Source: Gammaproteobacteria bacterium
GTDB lineage: Bacteria; Pseudomonadota; Gammaproteobacteria; Eutrophobiales; Eutrophobiaceae
DNA length: 10,329 nucleotides
Reading direction: 5' to 3'
Assembly: GCA_009843675.1 (NCBI GenBank)
Contig: VYCZ01000099.1
Coordinates: 1-10,329 of the forward strand
Each line of letters starts with the position of its first letter. Positions within the stretch are counted from its first letter, which is position 1. Position numbers and translations under genes: made by a program. The notes under the pieces were generated by a model. It saw nothing but the letters and a program-made list of their open reading frames with translations. It made no database searches and had not been told where the DNA came from. Of this stretch, positions 1 through 10,329 are shown piece by piece.

Positions 1-1179
1 GAACCGGATTTCAGCGCCATTGCCCTGTCCGAACCCGGCGCGCTGGACCGTCCCGACGAACTGGCGCCTGCCGATGAGTTACGCGACATGGCCTTCGGGA
101 TGATACGGGTCCTCGATGAGGGACACCGGGCCGCTAGTCCCTGGAACCCGGAACTGCCCGCCGGCGCGTTGCGTGACGGGTTGCGGCACATGTCGATCAC
201 CCGTCTCTATGACGACCGTATGCTCAGGATGCAGCGCCAGGGCAAGATGTCGTTCTACCTGAAGTGCACCGGTGAGGAAGCCGTATCGGTTGCCCAGTGC
301 ATGGCGCTGGATGACGGCGACATGCTGTTTCCCACGTACCGCCAGCAGGCCCTGCTGATCACGCGCGGTTATCCCCTGCTGGACATGATGTGCCAGTGCC
401 TGTCCAACGCCGGAGACAGGTTGCAGGGCCGGCAGATGCCGGTTATGTACAGTTCGGACGTACATAAATTTTTCAGTATTTCCGGCAACCTGGGTACCCA
501 GTTTTCGCAGGCTGTCGGCTGGGCCATGGCCGCCGAGTACAGGAAGACCGGGGACATTGCCGCGGCCTGGGTGGGCGAAGGCACCAGTGCCGAGGCGGAT
601 TTCCACTATGCGCTCACCTTCAGTGCGGTATACCGCGCGCCGGTGATACTGAACGTGGTGAATAACCAGTGGGCCATATCCACCTCCCAGAACGTGGCAG
701 GGGGTGATGCGAACCCGTTTGCCGCGCGCGCCATCGGTTATGGCATCCCCGGCCTGCGCGTAGACGGCAATGACTTTCTCGCCGTATTCGCAGCCACCCG
801 ATGGGCCGCGCAGCGGGCGCGCGCAGGCGCCGGCCCGACCCTGATCGAGCTGTACACTTACCGCGCCGCGGCTCATTCCACCAGCGACGACCCGGGCCGG
901 TACCGGCCAGCCGACGAGTGGGAACACTGGCCCCTAGGCGATCCCATAGCGCGCCTGAACCAACATTTACTGGCCCGGGGTGAAGGGTCCGAGGCGGCAC
1001 ACGAACAGACGCAGGCGGAATTGGAGGACACGGTGAGCAGAACCTGGGAAGAGGCGCTCTCACTGGGAACCTTGAATGAAGGCCCGCGCCCGCCCGACTC
1101 GGCCATGTTTGAACACGTTTACAAGGAGATGCCGCCGCATCTCCTGGAACAGCGCCGGCAGCTTGAGGCAATAAAATGA
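1..1179 (+). CDS. bkdA1: Branched-chain 2-oxoacid dehydrogenase E1 alpha subunit, 5'-partial
   Basis: This is the alpha subunit of the thiamine-diphosphate-dependent E1 of the branched-chain 2-oxoacid dehydrogenase complex. With E1 beta it decarboxylates the keto acids of valine, leucine and isoleucine and passes the acyl group to E2 lipoate in the cytoplasm. The frame is open from base 1 (392 codons plus stop). The bases before the first ATG (88) still read as family-like protein, so the true start lies upstream of the window; Pseudomonas BkdA1 is about 410 residues. Visible motifs are PTYRQQ, the ThDP signature GEG (574-582) running to NN (661-666), and HSTSDDPGRYRPADEW, the conserved phosphorylation-loop region. 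The ThDP motif has GEG rather than GDG, a variant also found in human BCKDHA. The C-terminal motif FEHVYKEMPPHL strongly resembles Pseudomonas BkdA1. The stop overlaps the next start by 4 nt (ATGA). The assignment is firm; the exact N-terminus is unknown. Confidence 0.95.
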   Translation, partial: EPDFSAIALSEPGALDRPDELAPADELRDMAFGMIRVLDEGHRAASPWNPELPAGALRDGLRHMSITRLYDDRMLRMQRQGKMSFYLKCTGEEAVSVAQCMALDDGDMLFPTYRQQALLITRGYPLLDMMCQCLSNAGDRLQGRQMPVMYSSDVHKFFSISGNLGTQFSQAVGWAMAAEYRKTGDIAAAWVGEGTSAEADFHYALTFSAVYRAPVILNVVNNQWAISTSQNVAGGDANPFAARAIGYGIPGLRVDGNDFLAVFAATRWAAQRARAGAGPTLIELYTYRAAAHSTSDDPGRYRPADEWEHWPLGDPIARLNQHLLARGEGSEAAHEQTQAELEDTVSRTWEEALSLGTLNEGPRPPDSAMFEHVYKEMPPHLLEQRRQLEAIK

Positions 1180-2261
1180 ATGCAGTATTAAATGTCGAGG
1201 ACGGCCCGGCACTGCAACCTGCGGCAATAGAGGCGGCGCCCGGGGAAGTGCATGCAATGTCCATGATCCAGGCCCTGAACTCCGCCATGGATGTGATACT
1301 GGAACGGGACCCCAACGTGGTGATTTTCGGCGAAGACGTCGGCTACTTCGGCGGCGTGTTCCGCTGCACCGAAGGCCTGCAGCAGAAGCACGGCGAGGAC
1401 CGCGTGTTCGATACGCCGATTGCCGAGGGCGGTATCGTGGCGACGGCGATCGGCATGGGCGTCAACGGCCTGCGACCGGTGGTTGAGATCCAGTTTGCCG
1501 ACTATATTTACCCGGCCTTCGACCAGATTGCCAGCGAACTCGCCCGCCTGCGTTATCGTAGCGCCGGCCAGTTCTGGTCGCCGGTGACGATACGCACGCC
1601 CTGCGGCGGCGGCATCCGCGGCGGGCAGACCCACTCGCAGACACCGGAGGCCCTGTTTGCCCACGTCTGCGGCCTGAAGACGGTGATGCCGTCGAATCCT
1701 TACGACGCCAAAGGCCTGCTGATCAGCGCCATCGAGGACGATGACCCGGTCATCTTCTTCGAGCCCAAACGCCTGTACAACGGCCCGTTTGACGGCGACC
1801 CAGGCAAGCCGGCCGTGAGTTGGGACAGCCACGAAAAGGGACAGGTCCCCGCCGGCCACTACCGGGTGCCGCTGGGCAAGGCGGACATCGTGCGGGCCGG
1901 AAACGACGTAACCGTGCTGGCCTACGGTACCATGGTGCACGTGGCGCTGGCGGCAGCGGCGCAGGAAGGTATCGATGCCGAAGTAATCGACGTGCGCACC
2001 CTGATGCCTCTGGACATCGAAACAGTCTGCGCCTCCGTGTGCCGCACCGGGCGCTGCGTGATCGTACACGAAGCCACGCGCTTCTGCGGCTATGGAGCGG
2101 AACTCTCCGCACAGGTGCAGGAGCGTTGCTTCTGGAACCTGGAGGCGCCCATAGAGCGGGTGACGGGTTGGGACACACCCTACCCGCACGCGCAGGAATG
2201 GGCCTATTTTCCGGGACAGGCCCGGGTGGCCGCTGCGCTGCAACGGACCCTGGACGCCTGA
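1176..2261 (+). CDS. bkdA2: Branched-chain 2-oxoacid dehydrogenase E1 beta subunit
   Basis: This is the beta subunit of the E1 heterotetramer (361 aa). It pairs with the upstream alpha subunit to form the ThDP site and dock on E2. Recognisable family stretches are FGEDVGYFGGVFRCTEGL, GLRPVVEIQFADYIYPAFDQ, GGQTHSQTPEALFAHVCGL (the conserved His is residue 153), MPSNPYDAKGLL and, near the end, ERVTGWDTPYPHAQEWAYFP, which is almost the same in Pseudomonas BkdA2. The start at 1176 has a GAGG Shine-Dalgarno (1165-1168, 7 nt spacing) and overlaps the E1 alpha stop, so it is preferred. It gives about 27 more N-terminal residues than the start of the Pseudomonas protein. An in-frame ATG at 1257, preceded by GGGGAAG at 1242-1248, would give a more typical N-terminus and cannot be excluded. 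The stop is 2 nt before the E2 start. Confidence 0.95.
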   Translation: MNAVLNVEDGPALQPAAIEAAPGEVHAMSMIQALNSAMDVILERDPNVVIFGEDVGYFGGVFRCTEGLQQKHGEDRVFDTPIAEGGIVATAIGMGVNGLRPVVEIQFADYIYPAFDQIASELARLRYRSAGQFWSPVTIRTPCGGGIRGGQTHSQTPEALFAHVCGLKTVMPSNPYDAKGLLISAIEDDDPVIFFEPKRLYNGPFDGDPGKPAVSWDSHEKGQVPAGHYRVPLGKADIVRAGNDVTVLAYGTMVHVALAAAAQEGIDAEVIDVRTLMPLDIETVCASVCRTGRCVIVHEATRFCGYGAELSAQVQERCFWNLEAPIERVTGWDTPYPHAQEWAYFPGQARVAAALQRTLDA

Positions 2262-2263
2262 CC

Positions 2264-3517
2264 ATGGCTGAGTATTCGTTCAAGTTGCCGGACCTTGGCG
2301 AAGGCACCGTCGAGTCGGAGATCGTCGCCTGGCGCGCCGGGGTCGGTGATGCCGTCGAAGCTGATCAACCCCTGGTGGACGTGATGACGGACAAGGCCAC
2401 CATAGAAATCACCGCGCCGGTCACCGGCACCCTGGTCTCTATCGCCGGCGAGGCCGGCGATGTCATCGCGGTGGGCGCCGAGTTGGCGGTATTTGCCACA
2501 GGTGGCGACGCTCCCCATTCGTCATTCCCGCGCAGGCGGGAATCCAGTGAAATAACGGGTCACCCGGAGGGCGACACAGTATCCCACTGGATGCCGGAAC
2601 AAGTCCGGCATGACGAGGTAGACGCGAGCGGCGAGCCTGCGCCCGTCAGGCCGCAGACCTCCCCCGCTATTCGCCGTCTCGCCAGGGAACGCGGCATCGA
2701 TCTCAACGGAATAAACGGCACCGGGCCGAACGGGCGTATCACCCGCGCGGATATCGAGGCTTGCCCGGATCCGGCTGGAAAGCCCGCCGTGGTGGAATCC
2801 GGACCGGAAACAACCGGCGTCCATGAAATCAAGCTGGTGGGCCTGCGCCGCAAGATAGCCGAACAGATGAGCCTGAGCACAAGTCGTATCCCGCACTTCA
2901 GTTATGTCGAGGAAGTCGATATCACCGAACTGGAGCGACTGCGCCGGCAACTAAATGAGACGCGGCAGGAGGACCGGCCTGAACTCACCTACCTGCCTTT
3001 CGTCATGCAGGCCCTGGTGAAGGTAGCAAGTGAATTTCCCCAGTGTAATGCACACTTTGACGATGAGCGCCAGGTCATCACGCAATTCGATCCGATCCAC
3101 ATCGGTATTGCGGTGCAGACCGGTGACGGCCTGATGGCGCCAGTGATCCGGCACGTTGAAACCCTGGATCTGTGGCAATGCGCCCGGGAACTGCGCCAAG
3201 TGGCGGAAAAAACGAGAACCGGCAAGGCTCGCAGGGAAGAACTCACCGGTTCCACCATCACTATCACCAGTCTGGGCGCACTGGGCGGCATTGTTTCCAC
3301 TCCGATCATCAATCACCCTGAAGTCGCCATCATCGGCATAAACAGGACGCAACAACGCCCGGTATTCCAAAATAACGGGGTTACCCCCCGTCTGATGATG
3401 AACATCTCATCCTCATTCGACCACCGCGTCGTTGACGGCCATGACGCTGCCTGCGCCATCCGGGCGCTGAAGCAATACCTGGAATTCCCGGCAACATTGT
3501 TCCTGCCTGAATCCTGA
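2264..3517 (+). CDS. bkdB: Branched-chain 2-oxoacid dehydrogenase E2 (lipoyl acyltransferase) with repeat-derived linker
   Basis: This is the E2 core of the complex (417 aa). It accepts the acyl group from E1 on lipoate and transfers it to CoA. Domain order: one lipoyl domain (residues 1-78; motif DVMTDKATIEI, lipoylated Lys44), a linker (79-130), a peripheral subunit-binding domain for E3/E1 (about 131-167; TSPAIRRLARERGIDL, then GTGPNGRITRADI), a second linker, and the acyltransferase domain (about 183-417) with the active-site motif DHRVVDG (His387, Asp391). The frame is open much further upstream, but ATG 2264 begins the lipoyl domain exactly and lies 2 nt after the E1 beta stop. It has only a weak ribosome site, so translation is probably coupled. 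Residues 86-118 are encoded by an inserted palindromic repeat. No E3 gene follows, so lipoamide dehydrogenase must be encoded elsewhere. The choice of branched-chain over other substrates rests on the E1 genes. Confidence 0.93.
   Translation: MAEYSFKLPDLGEGTVESEIVAWRAGVGDAVEADQPLVDVMTDKATIEITAPVTGTLVSIAGEAGDVIAVGAELAVFATGGDAPHSSFPRRRESSEITGHPEGDTVSHWMPEQVRHDEVDASGEPAPVRPQTSPAIRRLARERGIDLNGINGTGPNGRITRADIEACPDPAGKPAVVESGPETTGVHEIKLVGLRRKIAEQMSLSTSRIPHFSYVEEVDITELERLRRQLNETRQEDRPELTYLPFVMQALVKVASEFPQCNAHFDDERQVITQFDPIHIGIAVQTGDGLMAPVIRHVETLDLWQCARELRQVAEKTRTGKARREELTGSTITITSLGALGGIVSTPIINHPEVAIIGINRTQQRPVFQNNGVTPRLMMNISSSFDHRVVDGHDAACAIRALKQYLEFPATLFLPES
2519..2616. repeat. Palindromic interspersed repeat inserted in frame in the E2 gene
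   Basis: This element of about 98 bp has outer ends TCGTCAT and ATGACGA and inner ATCCAGT / ACTGGAT, so its two arms are inverted copies of each other at their edges. Each arm also folds alone: CCCGC-GCA-GGCGGG at the left and GCCGGA-ACAAG-TCCGGC at the right. From memory, arms of the type CATTCCCGCGCAGGCGGGAATCCA and CCGGCATGACG form a common intergenic repeat of beta- and gammaproteobacteria. Here it is read through without a stop and encodes residues 86-118 of E2, including the telltale FPRRRESS. It lies between the lipoyl and E3-binding domains, a place that tolerates length change. The exact family name and insertion boundaries cannot be fixed by eye. Confidence 0.85.
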
Positions 3518-3523
3518 TCAGAT

Positions 3524-3570
3524 TTTCGGGGTCAGAGTAAAAATTCTGACGAATTTCTTACTCTGACCCC
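3524..3570 (+). repeat. 43-bp palindrome (REP/RAYT-type), copy 1, with 4 shared flanking bases
   Basis: From 3528 to 3570 the sequence has perfect 13-bp inverted ends, GGGGTCAGAGTAA and TTACTCTGACCCC. Inside these is a second perfect inverted pair AAATTC-tgac-GAATTT, with a single unpaired C. The whole can form a 19-bp stem with a 4-nt loop. With four flanking bases it matches the reverse complement of 10060-10106 at 46 of 47 positions. It lies 6 nt after the E2 stop and could act as an mRNA 3' stabiliser or weak terminator, although no T-run follows. I associate GGGGTCAGAGTAA palindromes with REP-like elements mobilised by IS200-like (RAYT) transposases; none is present here. Confidence 0.9.
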
Positions 3571-3580
3571 AAATATATAG

Positions 3581-3609
3581 TTGCGTGCCGATAATCAATA
3601 TGGGTTAAA
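3581..3609 (+). promoter_or_regulatory. Possible promoter for the hydrolase/DUF2784 pair (weak)
   Basis: TTGCGT (3581-3586) and GTTAAA (3604-3609) are 17 bases apart and stand 45-75 bases before the hydrolase start. The local sequence is AT-rich compared with the rest of the window. The match to sigma-70 boxes is poor, so this is only a guess for where transcription restarts after the palindrome. The remaining bases of the 136-bp gap (3518-3653) show no gene. Confidence 0.25.
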
Positions 3610-3653
3610 CTGGTAGAGACGCAATAACTGGTGATTCACGGCGGATAATATCG

Positions 3654-4445
3654 ATGATCGTCGAACAGATCTGGACCGGTAACGACTGGCGCAACTTCAA
3701 TTACCTCATCGCCTGCCCTGACACCGGCGAGGCGCTGGCCATCGACCCCCTGGACCACGAAAAATGCTTGCTGCACGCCCAGGACCAGGGCTGGGAAATC
3801 ACCCAGGTGCTGAATACCCACGAACACCATGACCACACAGGCGGCAATGCCGCGATGATAGACGCGACGGGCGCGGAATTGCTCGCCCACAAAAATGCCA
3901 GGGACAGGATTGTCGGGATAGACAGGCCGTTGTCCGCGGGTGATGTCATTAAAGTCGGCAGAACCGTGGAACTGGAAGCGCTGGATACGCCGGGTCATAC
4001 CATGAGCCACATCTGCCTGCTCTCCCATACGGACCAGCCTGCCCTGTTCTGCGGGGATACCTTGTTCAACGCGGGAGCGGGTAACTGCCATAACGGCGGG
4101 CACCCGAACGAGTTGTACCTGACTTTTTCCGGCCAACTGGCGCTTCTGCCCGATGACACCCTGATTTATCCCGGCCATGACTATATCATCAACAACCTGC
4201 AGTTCACCCTGAGCAGGGAGCCCGGCAATTCAGACGCCCGGTCATTAAGGGATGAGTTGATCGACCAGGACCCGGATGACGCCCTGGTCACCACCCTTGG
4301 AATGGAAAAAACCGTCAACACCTTCTTCCGCTTGAGAAACCCGGAAGTCATAGAGAAACTGCGCGAAGATTTCCCCGATCTGCCTGCCGAACCCGACGAA
4401 AAAACGGTCTTCCTGAAACTGCGGGAGATAAGAAACAGCTGGTAA
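3654..4445 (+). CDS. gloB: Glyoxalase II-type metallo-beta-lactamase-fold hydrolase (hydroxyacylglutathione hydrolase)
   Basis: This is a 263-residue MBL-fold hydrolase, most likely a hydroxyacylglutathione hydrolase that converts S-lactoylglutathione to lactate and glutathione in methylglyoxal detoxification. The dinuclear metal site is complete: THEHHDHTGGN (His56, His58, Asp60, His61), PGHT (His115), GDTLF (Asp135) and PGHDY (His175). The length and the C-terminal helical part (about 176-263, ending KLREIRNSW) fit the glyoxalase II family (about 250-260 aa) rather than shorter MBL proteins. The ATG at 3654 is preceded by a modest GCGGA ribosome site. The DUF2784 gene starts 1 nt after its stop, so the two are probably co-transcribed. 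A thioesterase acting on another glutathione or CoA thioester is an alternative. Confidence 0.88.
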   Translation: MIVEQIWTGNDWRNFNYLIACPDTGEALAIDPLDHEKCLLHAQDQGWEITQVLNTHEHHDHTGGNAAMIDATGAELLAHKNARDRIVGIDRPLSAGDVIKVGRTVELEALDTPGHTMSHICLLSHTDQPALFCGDTLFNAGAGNCHNGGHPNELYLTFSGQLALLPDDTLIYPGHDYIINNLQFTLSREPGNSDARSLRDELIDQDPDDALVTTLGMEKTVNTFFRLRNPEVIEKLREDFPDLPAEPDEKTVFLKLREIRNSW

Positions 4446-4446
4446 G

Positions 4447-4860
4447 GTGACGCTGTCTCCGACCTGGTTACTGCTTGCCGCCGACGGGTTGTTGATTATT
4501 CACGCCCTGTTTATCGCCTTTGTGGTTTTCGGGCTGATATTTATTATCGCCGGCCTGGTCAGGGGGTGGCGCTGGATCAGGAATCCCTGGTTCCGTTTCA
4601 TTCATCTTGGCGCAATAGGTATCGTTGTCATACAGTCCTGGTTGAATATAATCTGCCCGTTGACGATCTGGGAAAATAGCCTGCGGGACAAAGCCGGCGA
4701 AGCAACCTACGCCGGTTCGTTTATCCAGCACTGGCTGCACAAGTTGATCTTCTACCAGGCGGAAGCCTGGGTATTTACGCTATGTTATACCGTATTCGGC
4801 GCGCTGGTGGTCCTGGCCTGGTACCTGGCGCCGCCCTCGTCCCCGCGCAGGCGAAATTAA
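4447..4860 (+). CDS. DUF2784 small integral membrane protein
   Basis: This is a 137-residue membrane protein of the DUF2784 family, whose function is unknown. It begins with GTG, 1 nt after the hydrolase TAA, with no clear ribosome site, so translation is probably coupled. Hydrophobic segments lie at about residues 8-38, 52-69 and 106-128. The family signature is in the middle: a membrane segment followed by CPLTIWENSLR (70-80), then an AG...Y..SFIQHW stretch (83-96). The final seven residues, SSPRRRN (131-137), and the stop codon fall in a decayed copy of the same repeat that sits in the E2 gene, so the native C-terminus was probably different. It faces the ferredoxin oxidoreductase gene tail-to-tail. 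Confidence 0.85.
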   Translation: MTLSPTWLLLAADGLLIIHALFIAFVVFGLIFIIAGLVRGWRWIRNPWFRFIHLGAIGIVVIQSWLNIICPLTIWENSLRDKAGEATYAGSFIQHWLHKLIFYQAEAWVFTLCYTVFGALVVLAWYLAPPSSPRRRN

Positions 4861-4884
4861 CGGGGGTCAAGCCCGGCATGACGA
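4837..4884. repeat. Decayed copy of the CGTCATTCCC palindromic repeat
   Basis: The left part TCGTCCCCGCGCAGGCG (4837-4853) matches the left arm of the element in the E2 gene with small losses. The right part GTCAAGCCCGGCATGACGA (4866-4884) matches its right arm. The middle section and the inner inverted bases are gone, so the copy is about 48 bp instead of about 98. It covers the last codons of the DUF2784 gene and most of the 35-bp gap before the convergent oxidoreductase gene. It may serve as the transcript end for both, but has no T-run. Confidence 0.75.
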
Positions 4885-4895
4885 ACAAGGCAATA

Positions 4896-7800
4896 TCAGG
4901 CAACTTTCTTCAGGGTAGCCTCCAGGGCCTCCCCATGCTCATCCGCCAGTGCCGCGTCCCGTAATTCCCTGATCTTTGTCGCCGCTTTGGGCCGGTTGCG
5001 CAGGCTGTTCAGCGCCTCCATGATCCGGTTGAAGTTCGCTACGCCCCGTTCGTGCGTCTCGCCGTAGCCTTTTACCAGGCGCCGGCATTCGGCGGCTTCC
5101 ACGGCCAGGTCGTAATCGTCGGCGGCGCAGTCCAGCACCGTAGCCAGCCACTTCTCAATGGCGGCGGTTTCCGTTTTGTAACGCAGGGTCGAACGGCGCG
5201 TGAACCGCCATCCGGCAAGCAGGTAAAGCAACAGGAAGCCGGACAGGCTGGTGGTGTTGATCTTCCTGCCGCGTCTGCAGAACAGGCCCAAAAAATTCCT
5301 CAGTATCGGTGTTTTCAGGTACAGGTAGCCTTTCCAGGCCGGCATGATGTCGCACAGCTCCTGTACCCTGGGGTGCATGAATTCCTGCCAGGTCACGACC
5401 TGGCCCTGCTCCGCCTGTACCTCTTTTCTCACCCTGTCAAAGCGCGTGGAGCGTATTTTCAGGTCCGCCACCCGGATCGCGTCTTCGTAAGCCATCGAGA
5501 GCGCCAGGTAACGGGCGGTCTCAACGGTCAACAGGTAGTCCCGGTCAGCACGATCCGCCCGCAGGACGGGTTGCAGCCTGTCCAGGTACTGATTGGCGTA
5601 ACGGACGTCCTGGTAATCCGCCAGTTTGCTTGCGGCTGCCCGGATGATCTCATGGGTTTGCGGCGGGAACTCCGACCGGACCCGCTCCAGCAATGCCTGT
5701 ACGTGCTCATGGACCGGCGCTTCGACAACGTCCGCGGCCGCCGGCCGCTCCTGTTGTTCCTGCTGCTTCTGCGCGTGTGCATAGCCTGCGTCAAACCCTT
5801 TCAGGTTGGCCTCAACCGCAACACCTCCCTCGGTGATGATCTCGGTAAAGGCTTCCCGGCCGAACGGCAGGGCGCCGGAACCGGCGGCCGCGCCCAGCAA
5901 CACTGAACTGATGACGCTACCTGTCCGGCCGGCCAGTACATCCATGTCGAAACCGATGAAATGCCTGGCATTCTCCGTCACGGCTTCCATGATCCTGCCG
6001 GTATTCGCCCGCCCATCGCCCAGTGCGGTTTTCTCCCCGATGGCGTAGTCCCGATGGGTGGACACCAGAGCGGTGGTCATGTCCGGCGTGTTCAAGCCCC
6101 GCAATACGGCGCGCCCGCCCTCGATGAGTTCGCCGGCGATGACCAGGTCCACGCGCCCGGGCACCGGCATCAAGGCCAGCACCGCCGGGTCGTCCCCGAC
6201 CGCATCCCGCGGGAAGAACTCCAGGTAGTAAACGGTCGCACCGGTGCGCTGGGCAACGCCGGGCACGGAGGTGGATTGCGCCAGGTAACCGGAACGCTCA
6301 GCCGCCTGGATCAGCCAGTTGCTGAGCACGCCGCCGCCCTGCCCACCCATGGCCAGGATGGCGATCTTGATGGGTTCGGCCTGTCCTGCCTGTGGGGCAT
6401 CTGCGCCCTCCCGGTTAATTTTCTCCTGCTTCCATACTGGCAGGGAGGCGGAATGACCTTCCTGTCCCGCTCCGGCAGGGTCTGTCGTTGCAACGGTCCG
6501 TTTGCGGCGGAGCAGGTCCGACCAGGCCTGCAGCCTGCCTATGACGAACGAACGGAAGGCCGCCAATGCCCTGTCGGCAAGGTTAGGGTTATAGACGATA
6601 TCGGCCTTGTAAAACGACGGGCACAGTACCGCGGCATGGGCCACCTCGCCGCAGACGCCGCACCCGACACAACTGTTGACGACGGTTGCTACCGGATCCT
6701 TTCTCAGGGGGTCGGGGTTGTCCTTGATGGTCAGCGACGGACATCCGGACAGCCTGATGCAGGAATGATCGCCGGTGCAGGTGTCTTCATCAATACCGAA
6801 GCGCTCCCGCACGTAGCGTTTATTCTGTTTAAGCAGGTTCCTTATCTGCGGTTTGATCCTCCGTTGACGGTTAAGCTGGCACTCTCCTTCCGCAACGATG
6901 AGTTTCGGACCCTTATCCCTGGTGGTCATGGCCTCTCTCAGGGCATGCAGGGATTCCTGGATATTGTAGGTATGGACTTTCCTGATCCATCTCACGCCCG
7001 CGCCCTTGAGCGCATCGACGATGGAAACCCGGTACTGGCGCCTTTCCGCATCGGCCTTCGATGATGGGATCCACTGGCCGCCCGTGGCCGCGGAATAGCC
7101 GTTATCGACCACCACGATGATGCCGTCATGCTCGTTTTCCACCGCGTTGCCGATCCCGGTGGCCAGGCCGTTGTGCCAGAAACCGCCGTCGCCCATGATG
7201 CTCATGGCGCGTTTTTCGTGGGGCACCATCAGGGCCGAGGCGCTGGACGGACCCAGGCCGTAGCCGGTGATGGTGTTGCCGATGTTGAAGGGGGCGACCG
7301 TGGCGAAGGAATGGCAACCGATGTCCATGCTTACCTGCAGTTTGCCGAATTCCTTCTCCAGCAACTTGACCGCGGAGAAGAACGGGCGTTCCGGGCAGCC
7401 GGTACACAGGCCGGACGGCCGTTGTGGCACCAGTTGCGCCAGTTCTTCCCGGTTCGCGCCGTTGGTCTTTTCCAACGGCGGAACGGTGACCGCTCCGGGT
7501 TCCCAGCGCGTCAGGAATTTGCGCAGCCCCTCCTCCATCAACTGGCAGGTATACTCCCCGGCCATGGTAAACACGTCCTTGCCGTGCACCCGGGCCTGTA
7601 CGTCGTGGCGTCTCAGGATGGTGTTGATGTTCTGTTCCAGGTAGTCCGGCTGGCCTTCCTCCACCAACAGCACCGCCTTTTTGTCCCGGCAGAAACGCAC
7701 CACCTCCGCATCCACCAGGGGATAAGCTACGTTCAGGATATACATGGGGATGGTGTTGTTGCCGAACACGTCGGAACATCCCACGTACTCCATCGCCCGG

Positions 7801-8624
7801 TTCAGGGTGTTGTAGAGGCCGCCGGGGACGATAATACCGATATCCTTGAAGCGGCCCTCTATCACGTCGTTCAGGCTGTTCTCCTCTATGAATTTCAGCG
7901 CCGCCGGCCAGCGTTGTTCGGTTTTTTCCGTCTCATGTTGATAGTTGAACGGGGGCAGGACGATGCGCTCCACGTCCCGCGCCGGGTCATCCAGGGCATC
8001 GGTCACGGTAAATGCCGGGCGCCTGTTGTCTTTGGTATTCAATACGCCGTGGACGTGGCAGGCCCGCACCCGCAGCTGCAGCATCACGGGTGTGGATGAC
8101 GCTTCGGACAATTCAAAACCCTTCTCGACTATCCCGGCAATGTCGTTCAGGTTGGGTCTAGGGTCGAGCAACCACATCTGGGATTTCATGGCAAAGGCAT
8201 GGGACCGTTCCTGCATGATGGATGCGCCTTCACCATAATCCTCCCCGATGATGATGAGCGCGCCGCCCCTGACCCCGGCGGAGGCTACGTTGGCCAGCGC
8301 GTCCGAGGCCACGTTGGTGCCGACGGTGGATTTCCATGCGACCGCGCCGCGCAGCGGGTAATTGATCGAGGCAGCCAGCATGGAGGCCGCAGCCGCCTCA
8401 CTGGCGGACTGCTCGAAGTGGACGCCCAGTTCTTCCAGGATCTCCCTGGAATCGGAAAAAACGTCGATCAAGTGGCTGATGGGGGACCCCTGGTAGCCAC
8501 CGATATAGGAGACGCCGGATTGCAGCAGGGCCTTGGTCACCGCGAGGATGCCCTCCCCGTGCAGTTCGTCGCCATCTCCCAGACGGAGCATCTGGACTTC
8601 TTTTGCGAAAGAGCGTTCAGCCAT
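4896..8624 (-). CDS. Fused indolepyruvate-type 2-oxoacid:ferredoxin oxidoreductase (IorA-IorB-DUF6537 in one chain)
   Basis: This single chain of 1242 residues oxidatively decarboxylates a 2-oxoacid, probably an aryl pyruvate, to the acyl-CoA and reduces ferredoxin or another low-potential carrier. Order: N-terminal pyrimidine-binding/transketolase domains (about 20-390; GGYQGSPISHL), CTGCPERP (407-414), ThDP domain with GDGG (478-481) to VVVDNG (504-509), an iron-sulfur region (616-669), a linker (about 700-751), a gamma (IorB) domain beginning AILAMGGQGGG (GGQGGG 760-765), and a C-terminal DUF6537-like region (about 970-1242). The iron-sulfur cysteines are widely spaced: C616, C622, C628-P, then C652, C655, C658 and C668-P. 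The linker contains no in-frame start for a separate IorB; the nearest ATG is Met759, inside the motif. The start is 5 nt after the cyclase stop without a clear ribosome site, implying coupling. Substrate is inferred from family only. Confidence 0.9.
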   Translation of the reverse strand: MAERSFAKEVQMLRLGDGDELHGEGILAVTKALLQSGVSYIGGYQGSPISHLIDVFSDSREILEELGVHFEQSASEAAAASMLAASINYPLRGAVAWKSTVGTNVASDALANVASAGVRGGALIIIGEDYGEGASIMQERSHAFAMKSQMWLLDPRPNLNDIAGIVEKGFELSEASSTPVMLQLRVRACHVHGVLNTKDNRRPAFTVTDALDDPARDVERIVLPPFNYQHETEKTEQRWPAALKFIEENSLNDVIEGRFKDIGIIVPGGLYNTLNRAMEYVGCSDVFGNNTIPMYILNVAYPLVDAEVVRFCRDKKAVLLVEEGQPDYLEQNINTILRRHDVQARVHGKDVFTMAGEYTCQLMEEGLRKFLTRWEPGAVTVPPLEKTNGANREELAQLVPQRPSGLCTGCPERPFFSAVKLLEKEFGKLQVSMDIGCHSFATVAPFNIGNTITGYGLGPSSASALMVPHEKRAMSIMGDGGFWHNGLATGIGNAVENEHDGIIVVVDNGYSAATGGQWIPSSKADAERRQYRVSIVDALKGAGVRWIRKVHTYNIQESLHALREAMTTRDKGPKLIVAEGECQLNRQRRIKPQIRNLLKQNKRYVRERFGIDEDTCTGDHSCIRLSGCPSLTIKDNPDPLRKDPVATVVNSCVGCGVCGEVAHAAVLCPSFYKADIVYNPNLADRALAAFRSFVIGRLQAWSDLLRRKRTVATTDPAGAGQEGHSASLPVWKQEKINREGADAPQAGQAEPIKIAILAMGGQGGGVLSNWLIQAAERSGYLAQSTSVPGVAQRTGATVYYLEFFPRDAVGDDPAVLALMPVPGRVDLVIAGELIEGGRAVLRGLNTPDMTTALVSTHRDYAIGEKTALGDGRANTGRIMEAVTENARHFIGFDMDVLAGRTGSVISSVLLGAAAGSGALPFGREAFTEIITEGGVAVEANLKGFDAGYAHAQKQQEQQERPAAADVVEAPVHEHVQALLERVRSEFPPQTHEIIRAAASKLADYQDVRYANQYLDRLQPVLRADRADRDYLLTVETARYLALSMAYEDAIRVADLKIRSTRFDRVRKEVQAEQGQVVTWQEFMHPRVQELCDIMPAWKGYLYLKTPILRNFLGLFCRRGRKINTTSLSGFLLLYLLAGWRFTRRSTLRYKTETAAIEKWLATVLDCAADDYDLAVEAAECRRLVKGYGETHERGVANFNRIMEALNSLRNRPKAATKIRELRDAALADEHGEALEATLKKVA

Positions 8625-8629
8625 CGCGC

Positions 8630-9367
8630 TTATTCGGTGACGGCAAATACCCTGGCGGGGGAGCCGTCCATGCCGTCCAGGGGCAGGGGGATGCCGTACA
8701 AAGTGAACTCCCTGCCGTTGAGTTTGCCGATGTCGGTGAGCAACTGGATGATGATGGTCTTGTTGCCCAGCAGGGTCTTGTGGTTGCGTCCGGGCGGCTG
8801 GTCCGCCTCGATGCCGAGCCAGAACGGCGCCTCGGGGAAGCAGTCCAGGGCCACTGCCTTGCAGCCTTTCTCCACGATGTATTCCGCCGCGGTGGTATCC
8901 AGGAATATGGATTCGCCCCAGAATTCGTCAGTGCCCCAGGCCCGTTCGGTCCAGCCGGTGTACAGAACGGGGATGACGCCGGCATCGATCTCCACGCCGG
9001 TCCTGATGATCGCGTCGGCGGTAATGCGTTCCCGTCCCTTCAGGTGGGTCAGGGGCACTACCACGCCCTTGCCGATGGTGTGCTCCAGGGGGATCTGTTC
9101 CACCGTCCAGCCGCCGGACTCCAGGAAATGGCAGGGGGCGTCGATATGGGTGCCGATATGGGTAAGGATCTCCAGCCGGGACAGCATGTGCGGGGTGAAC
9201 TCGAGGTTGTCGTCCAGTTCGATGTCGCGGCTCTCCAGGTATGCTTTCTGCACTTCTCCCATGCAGGACAACACCACGCAGCGAGTGGGATTCTCTTCAT
9301 ACTCGCGCAGGTTCGGGATGCCCTGCATGTGGCGATTGACTGGCAGTGTCAGGTCGATGACGGCCAT
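8630..9367 (-). CDS. Cyclase-family (kynurenine formamidase-like) metal-dependent hydrolase
   Basis: This is a 245-residue protein of the cyclase superfamily (PF04199), which includes kynurenine formamidase and other amide or lactone hydrolases using divalent metal. The family metal motif HxGTHxDxPxH is complete at residues 70-80 (HIGTHIDAPCH; His70, His74, Asp76, His80). The start at 9367 is well supported by a GGAGG-type ribosome site about 5 nt upstream (9373-9378 on the plus strand). No signal peptide is seen, so it is cytoplasmic. It lies 33 nt after cofC and 5 nt before the ferredoxin oxidoreductase gene, so it probably belongs to the same operon. The substrate is not readable from sequence. 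Formylkynurenine would fit a link to tryptophan breakdown, but the superfamily is broad. Confidence 0.88.
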   Translation of the reverse strand: MAVIDLTLPVNRHMQGIPNLREYEENPTRCVVLSCMGEVQKAYLESRDIELDDNLEFTPHMLSRLEILTHIGTHIDAPCHFLESGGWTVEQIPLEHTIGKGVVVPLTHLKGRERITADAIIRTGVEIDAGVIPVLYTGWTERAWGTDEFWGESIFLDTTAAEYIVEKGCKAVALDCFPEAPFWLGIEADQPPGRNHKTLLGNKTIIIQLLTDIGKLNGREFTLYGIPLPLDGMDGSPARVFAVTE

Positions 9368-9400
9368 GGTGTCCTCCGGTCGTAAAACTGTTTCAGTATA

Positions 9401-10036
9401 TCACCTATCAACCGGTTCCAGCGATCGCAGGTAACGCCAGGTACGGTTTGCCCCGGACTGTTTCCGTAACGCATGCAGGTCGTCGGGCAGGTCCATGTCC
9501 CGGGCCAGGCCGGTGGGCTTCACAACGTTGAAGGGTATCCGGCGTTGTTCCGCTTCCTTGCGAAATTCATCAAAGCTGTTTTCGCCGTATTTCAATTCCA
9601 TGGCAAGGGGCGGGGTGAACACCAGGCCGTTGGTGCCGCCGTCGTTGGCGGCGGGGCACAGGGTGACGCCTTCCCTGTGAACTCGGTCCAGGTAAACCAG
9701 GTCCCGTTCTTCGAGTTCCGGCACATCGGCGGGGATAATGAGTGTCTTGTGAGCGCTCTTGCCGGTGATATGTTTTATACCTTTCAGAACGTCCGCGGCA
9801 TAACCACCGTCGGTTCCGGTGTCGAGTACGTCAACGCCTTTTGCGCGCGCCAACTCCATGACATCCGTATCGCAACTGACCACCGTAACGCCGCCGACCA
9901 CGGCAGATCCGGCCAGGGTGTCGAGAATGTCTTCCAGCATGCACAGGCTGAGTTGCCGGCGTTGCTCCGGTGTCAATACACCGGCAAGCCGTAACTTGGA
10001 GTGCTCCAGCCGTTTTACGGGAATAATCACCCACAT
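9401..10036 (-). CDS. cofC: CofC/FbiD-type guanylyltransferase for cofactor F420 biosynthesis
   Basis: This 211-residue nucleotidyltransferase is of the CofC/FbiD family. It joins GTP to 2-phospholactate, phosphoenolpyruvate or 3-phosphoglycerate (depending on lineage) to make the activated side-chain precursor of coenzyme F420. Family marks are the start MWVIIPVKRLEHSKLRL, the LIIPADVPEL metal and nucleotide region, and AANDGGTNGLVF followed by YGENSFDEF. The ATG at 10036 is chosen because CofC proteins usually begin with MWxIxPVK; an in-frame TTG at 10054 would add six residues with no homology support. There is no strong ribosome site. A 43-bp palindrome sits just upstream, between it and the F420 reductase gene. 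Which three-carbon phosphate it uses cannot be decided by eye. CofD, CofE and the Fo synthase genes are not in the window. Confidence 0.9.
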   Translation of the reverse strand: MWVIIPVKRLEHSKLRLAGVLTPEQRRQLSLCMLEDILDTLAGSAVVGGVTVVSCDTDVMELARAKGVDVLDTGTDGGYAADVLKGIKHITGKSAHKTLIIPADVPELEERDLVYLDRVHREGVTLCPAANDGGTNGLVFTPPLAMELKYGENSFDEFRKEAEQRRIPFNVVKPTGLARDMDLPDDLHALRKQSGANRTWRYLRSLEPVDR

Positions 10037-10059
10037 GCAGTTATCCGATACCAAAATCA

Positions 10060-10106
10060 GGGGTCAGAGTAAGAAATTCGCCAGAATTTTTACTCTGACC
10101 CCGAAA
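10060..10106 (-). repeat. 43-bp palindrome (REP/RAYT-type), copy 2, with 4 shared flanking bases
   Basis: Its reverse complement matches 3524-3570 at 46 of 47 positions, so it is the same element in the opposite orientation. It retains the 13-bp inverted ends and the inner AAATTC / GAATTT pair. It occupies nearly all of the 53-bp gap between the F420 reductase gene and cofC and overlaps the end of the former. As a hairpin inside the transcript it could dampen read-through or protect the upstream message. Confidence 0.9.
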
Positions 10107-10329
10107 TTTCATCAATGCCGGTGATGCGGATGCCGGAATGGGGGGTCTTGTAAGCCCGGTTGATATGGATAAGCAGGCTGGTCAGGGCTTCGGCAGCCGC
10201 GGCGTTGGCCAGTTTCCCGGCATTGATGGCCCGGCAACCGCTGTCTTCCACCAGTTGCATCACTTCCCTGCGGGTTTCCGGGTCGTCGCCGGTCACCAGG
10301 ATGTCGCAATCTATCTCCACGTCCTGTTC
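10090..10329 (-). CDS. npdG: F420:NADPH oxidoreductase, C-terminal part (5' end outside window)
   Basis: These 79 codons plus stop are the C-terminal part of an NpdG/Fno-type F420-dependent NADP reductase, which exchanges hydride between F420H2 and NADP+ in the cytoplasm. The diagnostic stretch is DCDILVTGDDPETR, then a Rossmann-type tail with AINAGKLANAAAAEALTSLL and the family end INRAYKTPHSGIRITG. Full-length members are about 210-230 residues, so about two thirds lies off the right edge. The frame is open to the window end; the GTG at 10320 is an internal codon, not a start. The final residues SGSE and the TAA stop are encoded by the 43-bp palindrome, so the original stop was probably lost or moved. 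It is the first visible gene of the minus-strand operon. A different member of the same reductase family is possible but less likely next to cofC. Confidence 0.82.
   Translation of the reverse strand, partial: EQDVEIDCDILVTGDDPETRREVMQLVEDSGCRAINAGKLANAAAAEALTSLLIHINRAYKTPHSGIRITGIDEISGSE

Follow-up and report, generated by a model that had tools for sequence, protein, structure and literature searches.

An npdG-cofC unit adjoining a cyclase-oxidoreductase gene pair in a gammaproteobacterial genome

The locus

The DNA considered here (the window) comprises bases 1-10,329 of a 12,230-bp contig (VYCZ01000099.1, C104) in the genome of a Gammaproteobacteria bacterium (GCA_009843675.1, G000). Its minus strand carries, in this order, the F420 genes npdG (fno) and cofC, a gene for a cyclase-family metallohydrolase and a gene for a fused 2-oxoacid oxidoreductase of the indolepyruvate:ferredoxin oxidoreductase type (IOR), with gaps of exactly 53, 33 and 5 nt (Table 1). 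Coordinates and family matches agree with an earlier note, made from the letters of the window, which had described these genes as one run on one strand. The arrangement is real and is conserved in part of the genus.

Metagenome-assembled genomes and gene sequences alone form the evidence base. The genome of the window is 2.63 Mb in 466 contigs and 77% complete, and 86 of its stretches, totalling 485,712 of 2,625,863 bases, were read. Comparisons used samples with one genome per species: an order sample of 53 genomes, all of one family, a class sample of 369 and a phylum sample of 398; the genus of the window is represented by seven genomes. The six named relatives are gammaproteobacterial metagenome-assembled genomes, and G001-G006 are taken as G022, G019, G018, G020, G021 and G023, as their coordinates and sizes match. 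Published work is cited from passages of the sources named.

Table 1. Features of the window and their positions
Feature	Position	Strand	Description
IOR	4896-8624	-	fused IOR-type 2-oxoacid oxidoreductase, 1242 aa; thiamine diphosphate (TPP) domains, iron-sulfur (Fe-S) cysteines, POR gamma domain, DUF6537
cyclase	8630-9367	-	PF04199 cyclase-family metallohydrolase, 245 aa; HIGTHIDAPCH metal motif
cofC	9401-10036	-	2-phospho-L-lactate-type guanylyltransferase, 211 aa from ATG; TIGR03552
npdG (fno) 3' part	10090-10329	-	NADPH:F420 oxidoreductase; 5' part right of window
REP-like (repetitive extragenic palindromic) palindrome	10060-10102		GGGGTCAGAGTAA...TTACTCTGACCCC, between npdG and cofC
DUF2784 protein	4447-4860	+	convergent neighbour, outside operon
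GloB-like metallo-beta-lactamase-fold hydrolase	3654-4445	+	convergent neighbour
2-oxoacid dehydrogenase E1 alpha, E1 beta, E2	88-3517	+	separate unit, opposite strand

CofC matches its family with 127.1 bits (cut-off 105). Past a short N stretch, npdG resumes on the contig from about 10,341 to 10,778, and its two pieces show 88% identity to the NpdG of L006 over residues 146-221 and 1-146; the L006 protein, as distinct from the window's split copy, scores 201.7 bits for TIGR01915 (cut-off 149.8). The expectation that more F420 genes would lie past the right edge was not borne out, as extension of the contig gave the rest of npdG, a tRNA-Gln(ctg) at 10,807-10,880, a 200-residue open reading frame (ORF) with no match in a Pfam scan, and a DNA methylase fragment (PF01555, 50.1 bits). 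The tRNA-Gln stands directly ahead of npdG in all six named relatives, indicating that the run begins at npdG, with no F420 gene ahead of it on the contig. Within the window itself, a tRNA search and an Rfam search at gathering score gave no matches.

The palindrome between npdG and cofC has 13-bp arms and encloses the npdG stop codon. Consequently, a transcript shared with the other genes is less certain for npdG than the putative cofC-cyclase-IOR transcript. This is the commonest repeat type in the own-genome stretches read, where the REP-like sequence GGGGTCAGAGTA has 27 matches over the two strands together. A second REP-like palindrome lies at 3528-3570, and such palindromes hold the commonest 14-mers of these stretches. 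Another repeat type occurs in frame inside E2 near 2522 and also where the fbiC ORF of L014 begins (SSFPR[RK]RES...).

Conservation in the genus

CofC is matched in 14 of the 53 order-sample genomes (E <= 1e-5) and the cyclase in seven (E <= 1e-30), the match in G018 being cut by a contig end. The neighbourhood search across genomes that the earlier note had proposed found npdG-cofC-cyclase-IOR intact in four of the seven genus genomes (G000, G022, G019 and G021), and since the same order recurs in these, the arrangement is more than chance. The cyclase-IOR gap varies, being 5 nt in the window, about 190 in L005 and about 150 in L006. The linkage is absent from the other three genomes. In G018, cofC is followed by a different ORF on the opposite strand (Nramp-like by eye), with the cyclase-IOR pair located on a separate contig; in G023, a single contig holds both cofC and the pair, 1.36 Mb apart; in G020, the GloB-like gene comes directly after cofC, and this 95% complete genome gave no cyclase or IOR match at E <= 1e-30. 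The GloB-like gene adjoins cofC in L008 and lies 2.6 kb from IOR in L086. A tree of CofC, NpdG and CofD, with CofD from five of the seven genomes and with weak deep supports, has G023 splitting first (71), followed by G021 (70), G018 (91), G019 (89) and then G020 from G000/G022 (100). This fits a history in which the two units joined after G023 had split off and were parted later in G018 and G020.

One account of the locus is chance adjacency, in which the units met in a common ancestor of some genus members and have since been kept together by short evolutionary distance and general synteny, with no shared pathway. The three genomes that lack the linkage favour this account, as does the conserved block itself, which runs on into DUF2784-GloB-E2-E1, so that the synteny is not specific to the operon; the REP-like repeat in the npdG-cofC gap is a further point for it. 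Against it, the order survives between genomes whose CofC proteins are only 62% identical. Chance adjacency, which is compatible with the chemistry proposed for the pair below, is a possible explanation, if on the whole an unlikely one.

F420 genes in the genome, genus and class

Judged by family matches, the genome of the window carries a complete F420 biosynthesis gene set. The other F420 genes that the earlier note had suggested seeking are present on other contigs, with cofE-cofD on C198 and a fused fbiC on C12, which together with cofC on C104 makes three contigs; all three proteins exceed their NCBIfam cut-offs (CofD 289.4 bits against 257.45, CofE 276.8 against 180.65, FbiC 1164.3 against 1018). 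CofD is found in all seven genus genomes and FbiC in six, none having been found in G018 (= G003). F420 genes are uncommon in the class, in line with the earlier note's remark on proteobacteria, with CofD in only 15 of 369 class-sample genomes at E <= 1e-20, 14 of them above the cut-off. Among 14 control genomes, CofD passes the cut-off in three, all of them archaea.

The cofD neighbourhood was read in 10 of the 14 cofD-positive class-sample genomes besides the window's own. In seven of these (G177, G066, G423, G351, G218, G149 and G068), cofC, cofD and cofE stand together, and fbiC is within the neighbourhood in six of the 10; the exceptions are G214, where the neighbourhood showed only cofD, G321 with only cofE-cofD, and G075 with no cofC there. 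The genus of the window has all genes of the bacterial F420 clusters (npdG/fno-cofE-cofD-cofC-fbiC) in the genome studied here, but unlike those clusters it disperses the set over three loci; in G023, assembled mostly as one 3.57-Mb contig, cofC, cofD and fbiC lie at about 1.80, 2.84 and 3.05 Mb. This scattering, in contrast to the seven F420-positive Gammaproteobacteria with clustered genes, is a further point for chance adjacency. In G012 (L095, L096), cofC-fbiC occurs on two contigs, one of which also carries cofD and cofE. A literature search of titles and abstracts found no paper on F420 genes in Gammaproteobacteria, which is not to claim that none exists, and the word Gammaproteobacteria does not occur in a 2021 FEMS review on F420 (PMC8498797). 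According to the same review, no bacterial F420H2-dependent reductase or F420-reducing dehydrogenase outside Actinobacteria had been experimentally studied (PMC8498797).

The cyclase and the fused oxidoreductase

The cyclase, whose ATG is preceded by GGAGG, matches PF04199 with 90.3 bits (cut-off 23.1), and residues 70-80 agree with the isatin-hydrolase metal motif HxG[T/A]HxDxPxH. In passages of the work on these enzymes, this metal site and GLQC/GLAS are together named as the apparent isatin hydrolase signature, and WxW/FxW is the pocket motif (PMC6117287). Like the isatin hydrolases LaIHA and LaIHB, the window cyclase has the metal motif and, in alignment with the Q of GLQC, a Gln; unlike them, it has IIQL at the GLQC/GLAS site, no WxW/FxW motif in its sequence and, relative to motif-bearing plasmid cyclases, a seven-residue insert, FPEAPFW. 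A solved isatin hydrolase matches it only at E 7e-4, and its nearest solved chain, 1r61 (E 6.6e-18), is named just a metal-dependent hydrolase. A plain isatin hydrolase is rejected on the GLQC/GLAS and WxW/FxW positions, and by its sequence the cyclase forms a distinct subfamily.

A different reading would place the locus in kynurenine-type tryptophan catabolism, with the cyclase as a kynurenine formamidase and the oxidoreductase handling aromatic pyruvates in general. Its attraction is that the only NCBIfam match of the cyclase is the arylformamidase TIGR03035, and that 1r61 has IIIE where KynB carries its I(L/I)E motif (passages of PMC6117287). That match, however, reaches 37.4 bits against a cut-off of 223.05, and the window has IIQ at the KynB motif, on which grounds an identification as KynB is rejected; neither kynureninase nor tryptophan dioxygenase is among the eight window genes scanned. 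This reading is the least probable of those considered here.

The beta half of IOR matches PRK08312 with 649.3 bits (cut-off 348), and POR (46.5 bits, cut-off 27.4) and DUF6537 (157.2, cut-off 27) are likewise recognized, whereas the alpha equivalog TIGR03336 gives 268.1 bits, below its cut-off of 650.9. The enzyme thus has the TPP, Fe-S and POR gamma architecture of IorAB, the indolepyruvate:ferredoxin oxidoreductase, and differs from it in the low TIGR03336 score, the additional DUF6537 and the single chain. It has no match at E <= 0.001 among solved structures searched by sequence, and family scans of cyclase and IOR matched no F420-binding family. All six genus genomes with an IOR encode it as a single chain; two genes encode it in G058, in G177 and in those plasmid regions where both subunits are annotated. 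The alpha-beta linker measures about 92 residues in the window, 133 in G018 and 179 in G023 (L086, L088), with peptide repeats in the latter two. In an unrooted IOR tree, the sequences of the genus, G058 and contig C44 of G177 stand apart from ten plasmid relatives and contig C85 of G177, with a support of 100; C85 carries a second IOR alpha/beta of that genome.

The pair apart from cofC, and its co-occurrence with cofD

The cyclase-IOR pair occurs away from cofC in G018, G023, G058 and G177, of which G058 (same family) and G177 (another family) are outside the genus and encode IOR in two genes. At E <= 1e-40, the cyclase is found in two of 369 class-sample genomes (the window's own and G177) and in one of 398 of the phylum sample (its own). 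A CofD match (E <= 1e-5) is present in all eight genomes with this cyclase subfamily, spanning three lineages, and is above the cut-off in seven; the CofD of G058, which starts at a contig end, is below it. The overlap of cyclase and cofD in the order sample has p = 2e-5, but six of the seven cyclase genomes share a genus. With the genus left out, the probability that G058 and G177 are both cofD-positive is about 0.006 (7/46 x 14/368). The co-occurrence in eight of eight genomes, and the small probability for these two, count against chance adjacency. It is suggestive and keeps a functional link between F420 and the pair alive, although these are two events, which habitat-linked gene exchange could also explain.

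In G177, the pair belongs to an operon on one strand (L098 4535-12534) of a tryptophanase-family lyase, an old-yellow-enzyme protein, cyclase, IOR alpha and IOR beta. The lyase scores 622.7 bits for PRK13238 (cut-off 285) and is below the cut-offs of a tyrosine phenol-lyase model (549.3) and two TnaA models (547.2 and 488.4). The old-yellow-enzyme protein (Oxidored_FMN PF00724, 119.8 bits) is 31-32% identical over 193-229 residues to the C-terminal half of three salicylyl-CoA 5-hydroxylase/oxidoreductases. The gene content is consistent with a substrate derived from tryptophan or indole, and the operon may be a unit of an indole route.

Plasmid relatives and iad-type loci

Plasmid relatives of IOR comprise 55 records at E <= 1e-30, 43 of which cover at least 80% of the query. 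The surroundings of 11 were read with flanks of 6-12 kb, 10 being annotated (Azospirillum, Caballeronia, Pukyongiella, Sagittula, Variovorax, Ruegeria, Shinella, Hydrogenophaga, Paracoccus and Tsukamurella) and one, from Novosphingobium, without annotation. A cyclase-family gene is near IOR in four of the annotated regions (Pukyongiella, Shinella, Paracoccus and Tsukamurella), zero to five genes away and not always on the same strand. These four cyclases carry GLQC (two), GLAS (one) and GLTS (one), so that three have the published isatin-hydrolase motif; WxW is present in three, and the full WxWxW only in Paracoccus. A salicylyl-CoA 5-hydroxylase/oxidoreductase occurs in Azospirillum, Caballeronia and Tsukamurella, a cupin with a fumarylacetoacetate hydrolase in Caballeronia, Sagittula, Ruegeria, Shinella and Tsukamurella, and a ring-hydroxylating dioxygenase in Azospirillum and Hydrogenophaga; seven of the 10 regions have at least one of these three kinds of aromatic-type gene. 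Against homologues from the 11 plasmid regions, among them an iad-like cluster of Azospirillum, the window IOR shows 51-59% identity.

IadA and IadB are described as indolepyruvate ferredoxin oxidoreductase subunits and exclusive markers of iad-like operons, whose route passes through isatin and isatinic acid to anthranilate (passages of PMC9613470), and IadI, annotated as a kynurenine formamidase, acts late in that route (PMC12633357, a preprint, in part). Within one catabolic locus, the iad loci of Variovorax, Achromobacter and Bradyrhizobium combine IOR alpha/beta (IadA/IadB) with an amidohydrolase annotated as kynurenine formamidase (PMC9613470, PMC12633357), a combination that the IOR-type oxidoreductase and cyclase of the window resemble. 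Unlike these loci, the window has neither the Rieske oxygenase IadCDE, nor IadF-H, nor the MarR regulator among its genes, and it has fused subunits, a cyclase without the isatin-hydrolase motifs and adjacent F420 genes, the comparison being with iad-like plasmid clusters rather than named iad sequences. A search of the 86 own-genome stretches for iad-type genes gave only distant relatives. The Rieske alpha/beta pair on C12 was considered as IadDE and rejected, with 29% identity to the Azospirillum pair and 51%/40% to a Hydrogenophaga oxygenase (G002 copies). IadAB-type enzymes may act on isatinate or a like arylglyoxylate. A literature search for IOR together with a cyclase and F420 found nothing on point.

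A possible F420 user near fbiC

A luciferase-family protein (LLM) and a FAA hydrolase (FAH) are encoded side by side in all seven genus genomes; of the six in which fbiC was found, five have these genes no more than about 3 kb from it. The best solved match of the LLM of G002 (L055) is the F420-dependent Mer (methylene-tetrahydromethanopterin reductase), at E 4.3e-42. Luciferase-family matches number from 1 to 21 per genus genome, and many need not use F420. The Mer-like LLM near fbiC is more likely to use F420 than the cyclase or IOR. G020 keeps cofC, cofD, fbiC and LLM-FAH-M20 in the absence of the pair, indicating that F420 use there needs no cyclase-IOR pair.

The neighbourhood of fbiC has other features. 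A molybdopterin oxidoreductase of roughly 700 aa follows fbiC in four genomes (L014 16629-18740, L055, L056 and L061) and lies beside npdG-cofC in L008 (88-2208); the L014 and L008 copies reach the cut-off of none of the NCBIfam matches shown. Upstream of fbiC in L014 (G000:C12, 1419-9955) is a sterol biosynthesis cluster with a Rieske oxygenase, an ERG4/ERG24 reductase, a P450, a single protein of 1142 aa that combines squalene epoxidase with squalene/oxidosqualene cyclase (TIGR01787 504 bits, cut-off 322.7; TIGR03463 720, cut-off 851) and a sterol methyltransferase. The cluster is also present in G001 (L056/L057), where SdmA-like and SdmB-like proteins score 402.7 and 292.6 bits, both below the cut-off of 600, and in G002 (L055) without a called methyltransferase; the stretches read from G005 and G006 lack it. 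Bacterial sterol clusters are known from sponge metagenomes (PMC10070321, in part).

The earlier note had proposed an F420-dependent catabolic module for an aromatic or tryptophan-like substrate. In such a module, F420H2 made by NpdG would serve a reductase acting on the CoA thioester from IOR, and the four genes and the fbiC-linked Mer-like enzyme would form one pathway. The aromatic or tryptophan-type setting of the IOR relatives stood up, and the cofD co-occurrence, the constant LLM-FAH cassette with its usual place near fbiC, the ring-hydroxylating oxygenase genes that four genomes have near fbiC, and the flavin-dependent old-yellow-enzyme protein of the equivalent G177 operon, a protein not seen in the own-genome stretches, are all in its favour. 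The dependence on F420 fared less well: the pair exists unlinked to F420 genes, G020 has F420 genes and the LLM cassette without the pair, and LLM and pair are on different contigs. The proposal is one live reading, not the best supported one, and is quite improbable. A more specific form, doubtful to a slightly greater degree, is that cyclase and fused IOR make an amino-aryl-CoA that an NpdG-fed, F420H2-dependent luciferase-family hydride transferase reduces, this enzyme replacing the old-yellow-enzyme-type reductase of the G177 operon and of the monooxygenase-reductases of the salicylyl-CoA/2-aminobenzoyl-CoA type.

A proposed composite operon

The explanation that is modestly favoured is that of a composite operon, in which an npdG-cofC F420 unit has been joined to a cyclase-IOR catabolic pair for an indole- or tryptophan-derived aromatic; F420 would be co-located with this catabolism, neither enzyme of the pair being expected to bind it. 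NpdG would reduce F420 to F420H2 with NADPH and CofC would make the side-chain precursor, the remainder of F420 synthesis being encoded elsewhere in the genome. The metallohydrolase would probably open a cyclic amide, or cleave an N-acyl group, of the indole- or tryptophan-derived aromatic to give an aromatic 2-oxoacid, which the fused TPP/Fe-S enzyme may then oxidatively decarboxylate to an aryl- or arylacyl-CoA with reduction of ferredoxin. In function, the pair would be most closely paralleled by the isatin-to-isatinate step together with IadA/IadB of the iad-type indole-acetate loci.

Several observations weigh against this explanation. Plasmid cyclases share only 23-28% identity with the window cyclase, and isatin is not indicated by its signature, since it has IIQL and lacks WxW/FxW. 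Six of the 10 annotated plasmid regions have no cyclase in the fetched stretch, and the Variovorax region has no aromatic-type gene there. According to passages of the preprint, Variovorax iadC-K2 without iadAB suffices for anthranilate (PMC12633357), and the IOR step is therefore not essential in that organism. No ferredoxin gene is among the window genes, and no salicylyl-CoA-hydroxylase relative was found at E <= 1e-8 in the 485,712 own-genome bases. The Mer-like LLM, with 172.8 bits, is below the Mer cut-off of 348.7.

Cyclases with the isatin-hydrolase motif and IOR subunits recur together on alphaproteobacterial plasmids, with a near-miss motif in an actinomycete, and this recurrence suggests that IadA/IadB have a role left open by the passages on iad. 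If the more specific form of the F420-dependent proposal were true, F420H2-dependent reduction of an amino-aryl-CoA would be a new use of F420. The locus offers testable F420 candidates in Gammaproteobacteria, namely a pair seen, within the samples, only in cofD genomes and a Mer-like hydride transferase near fbiC.

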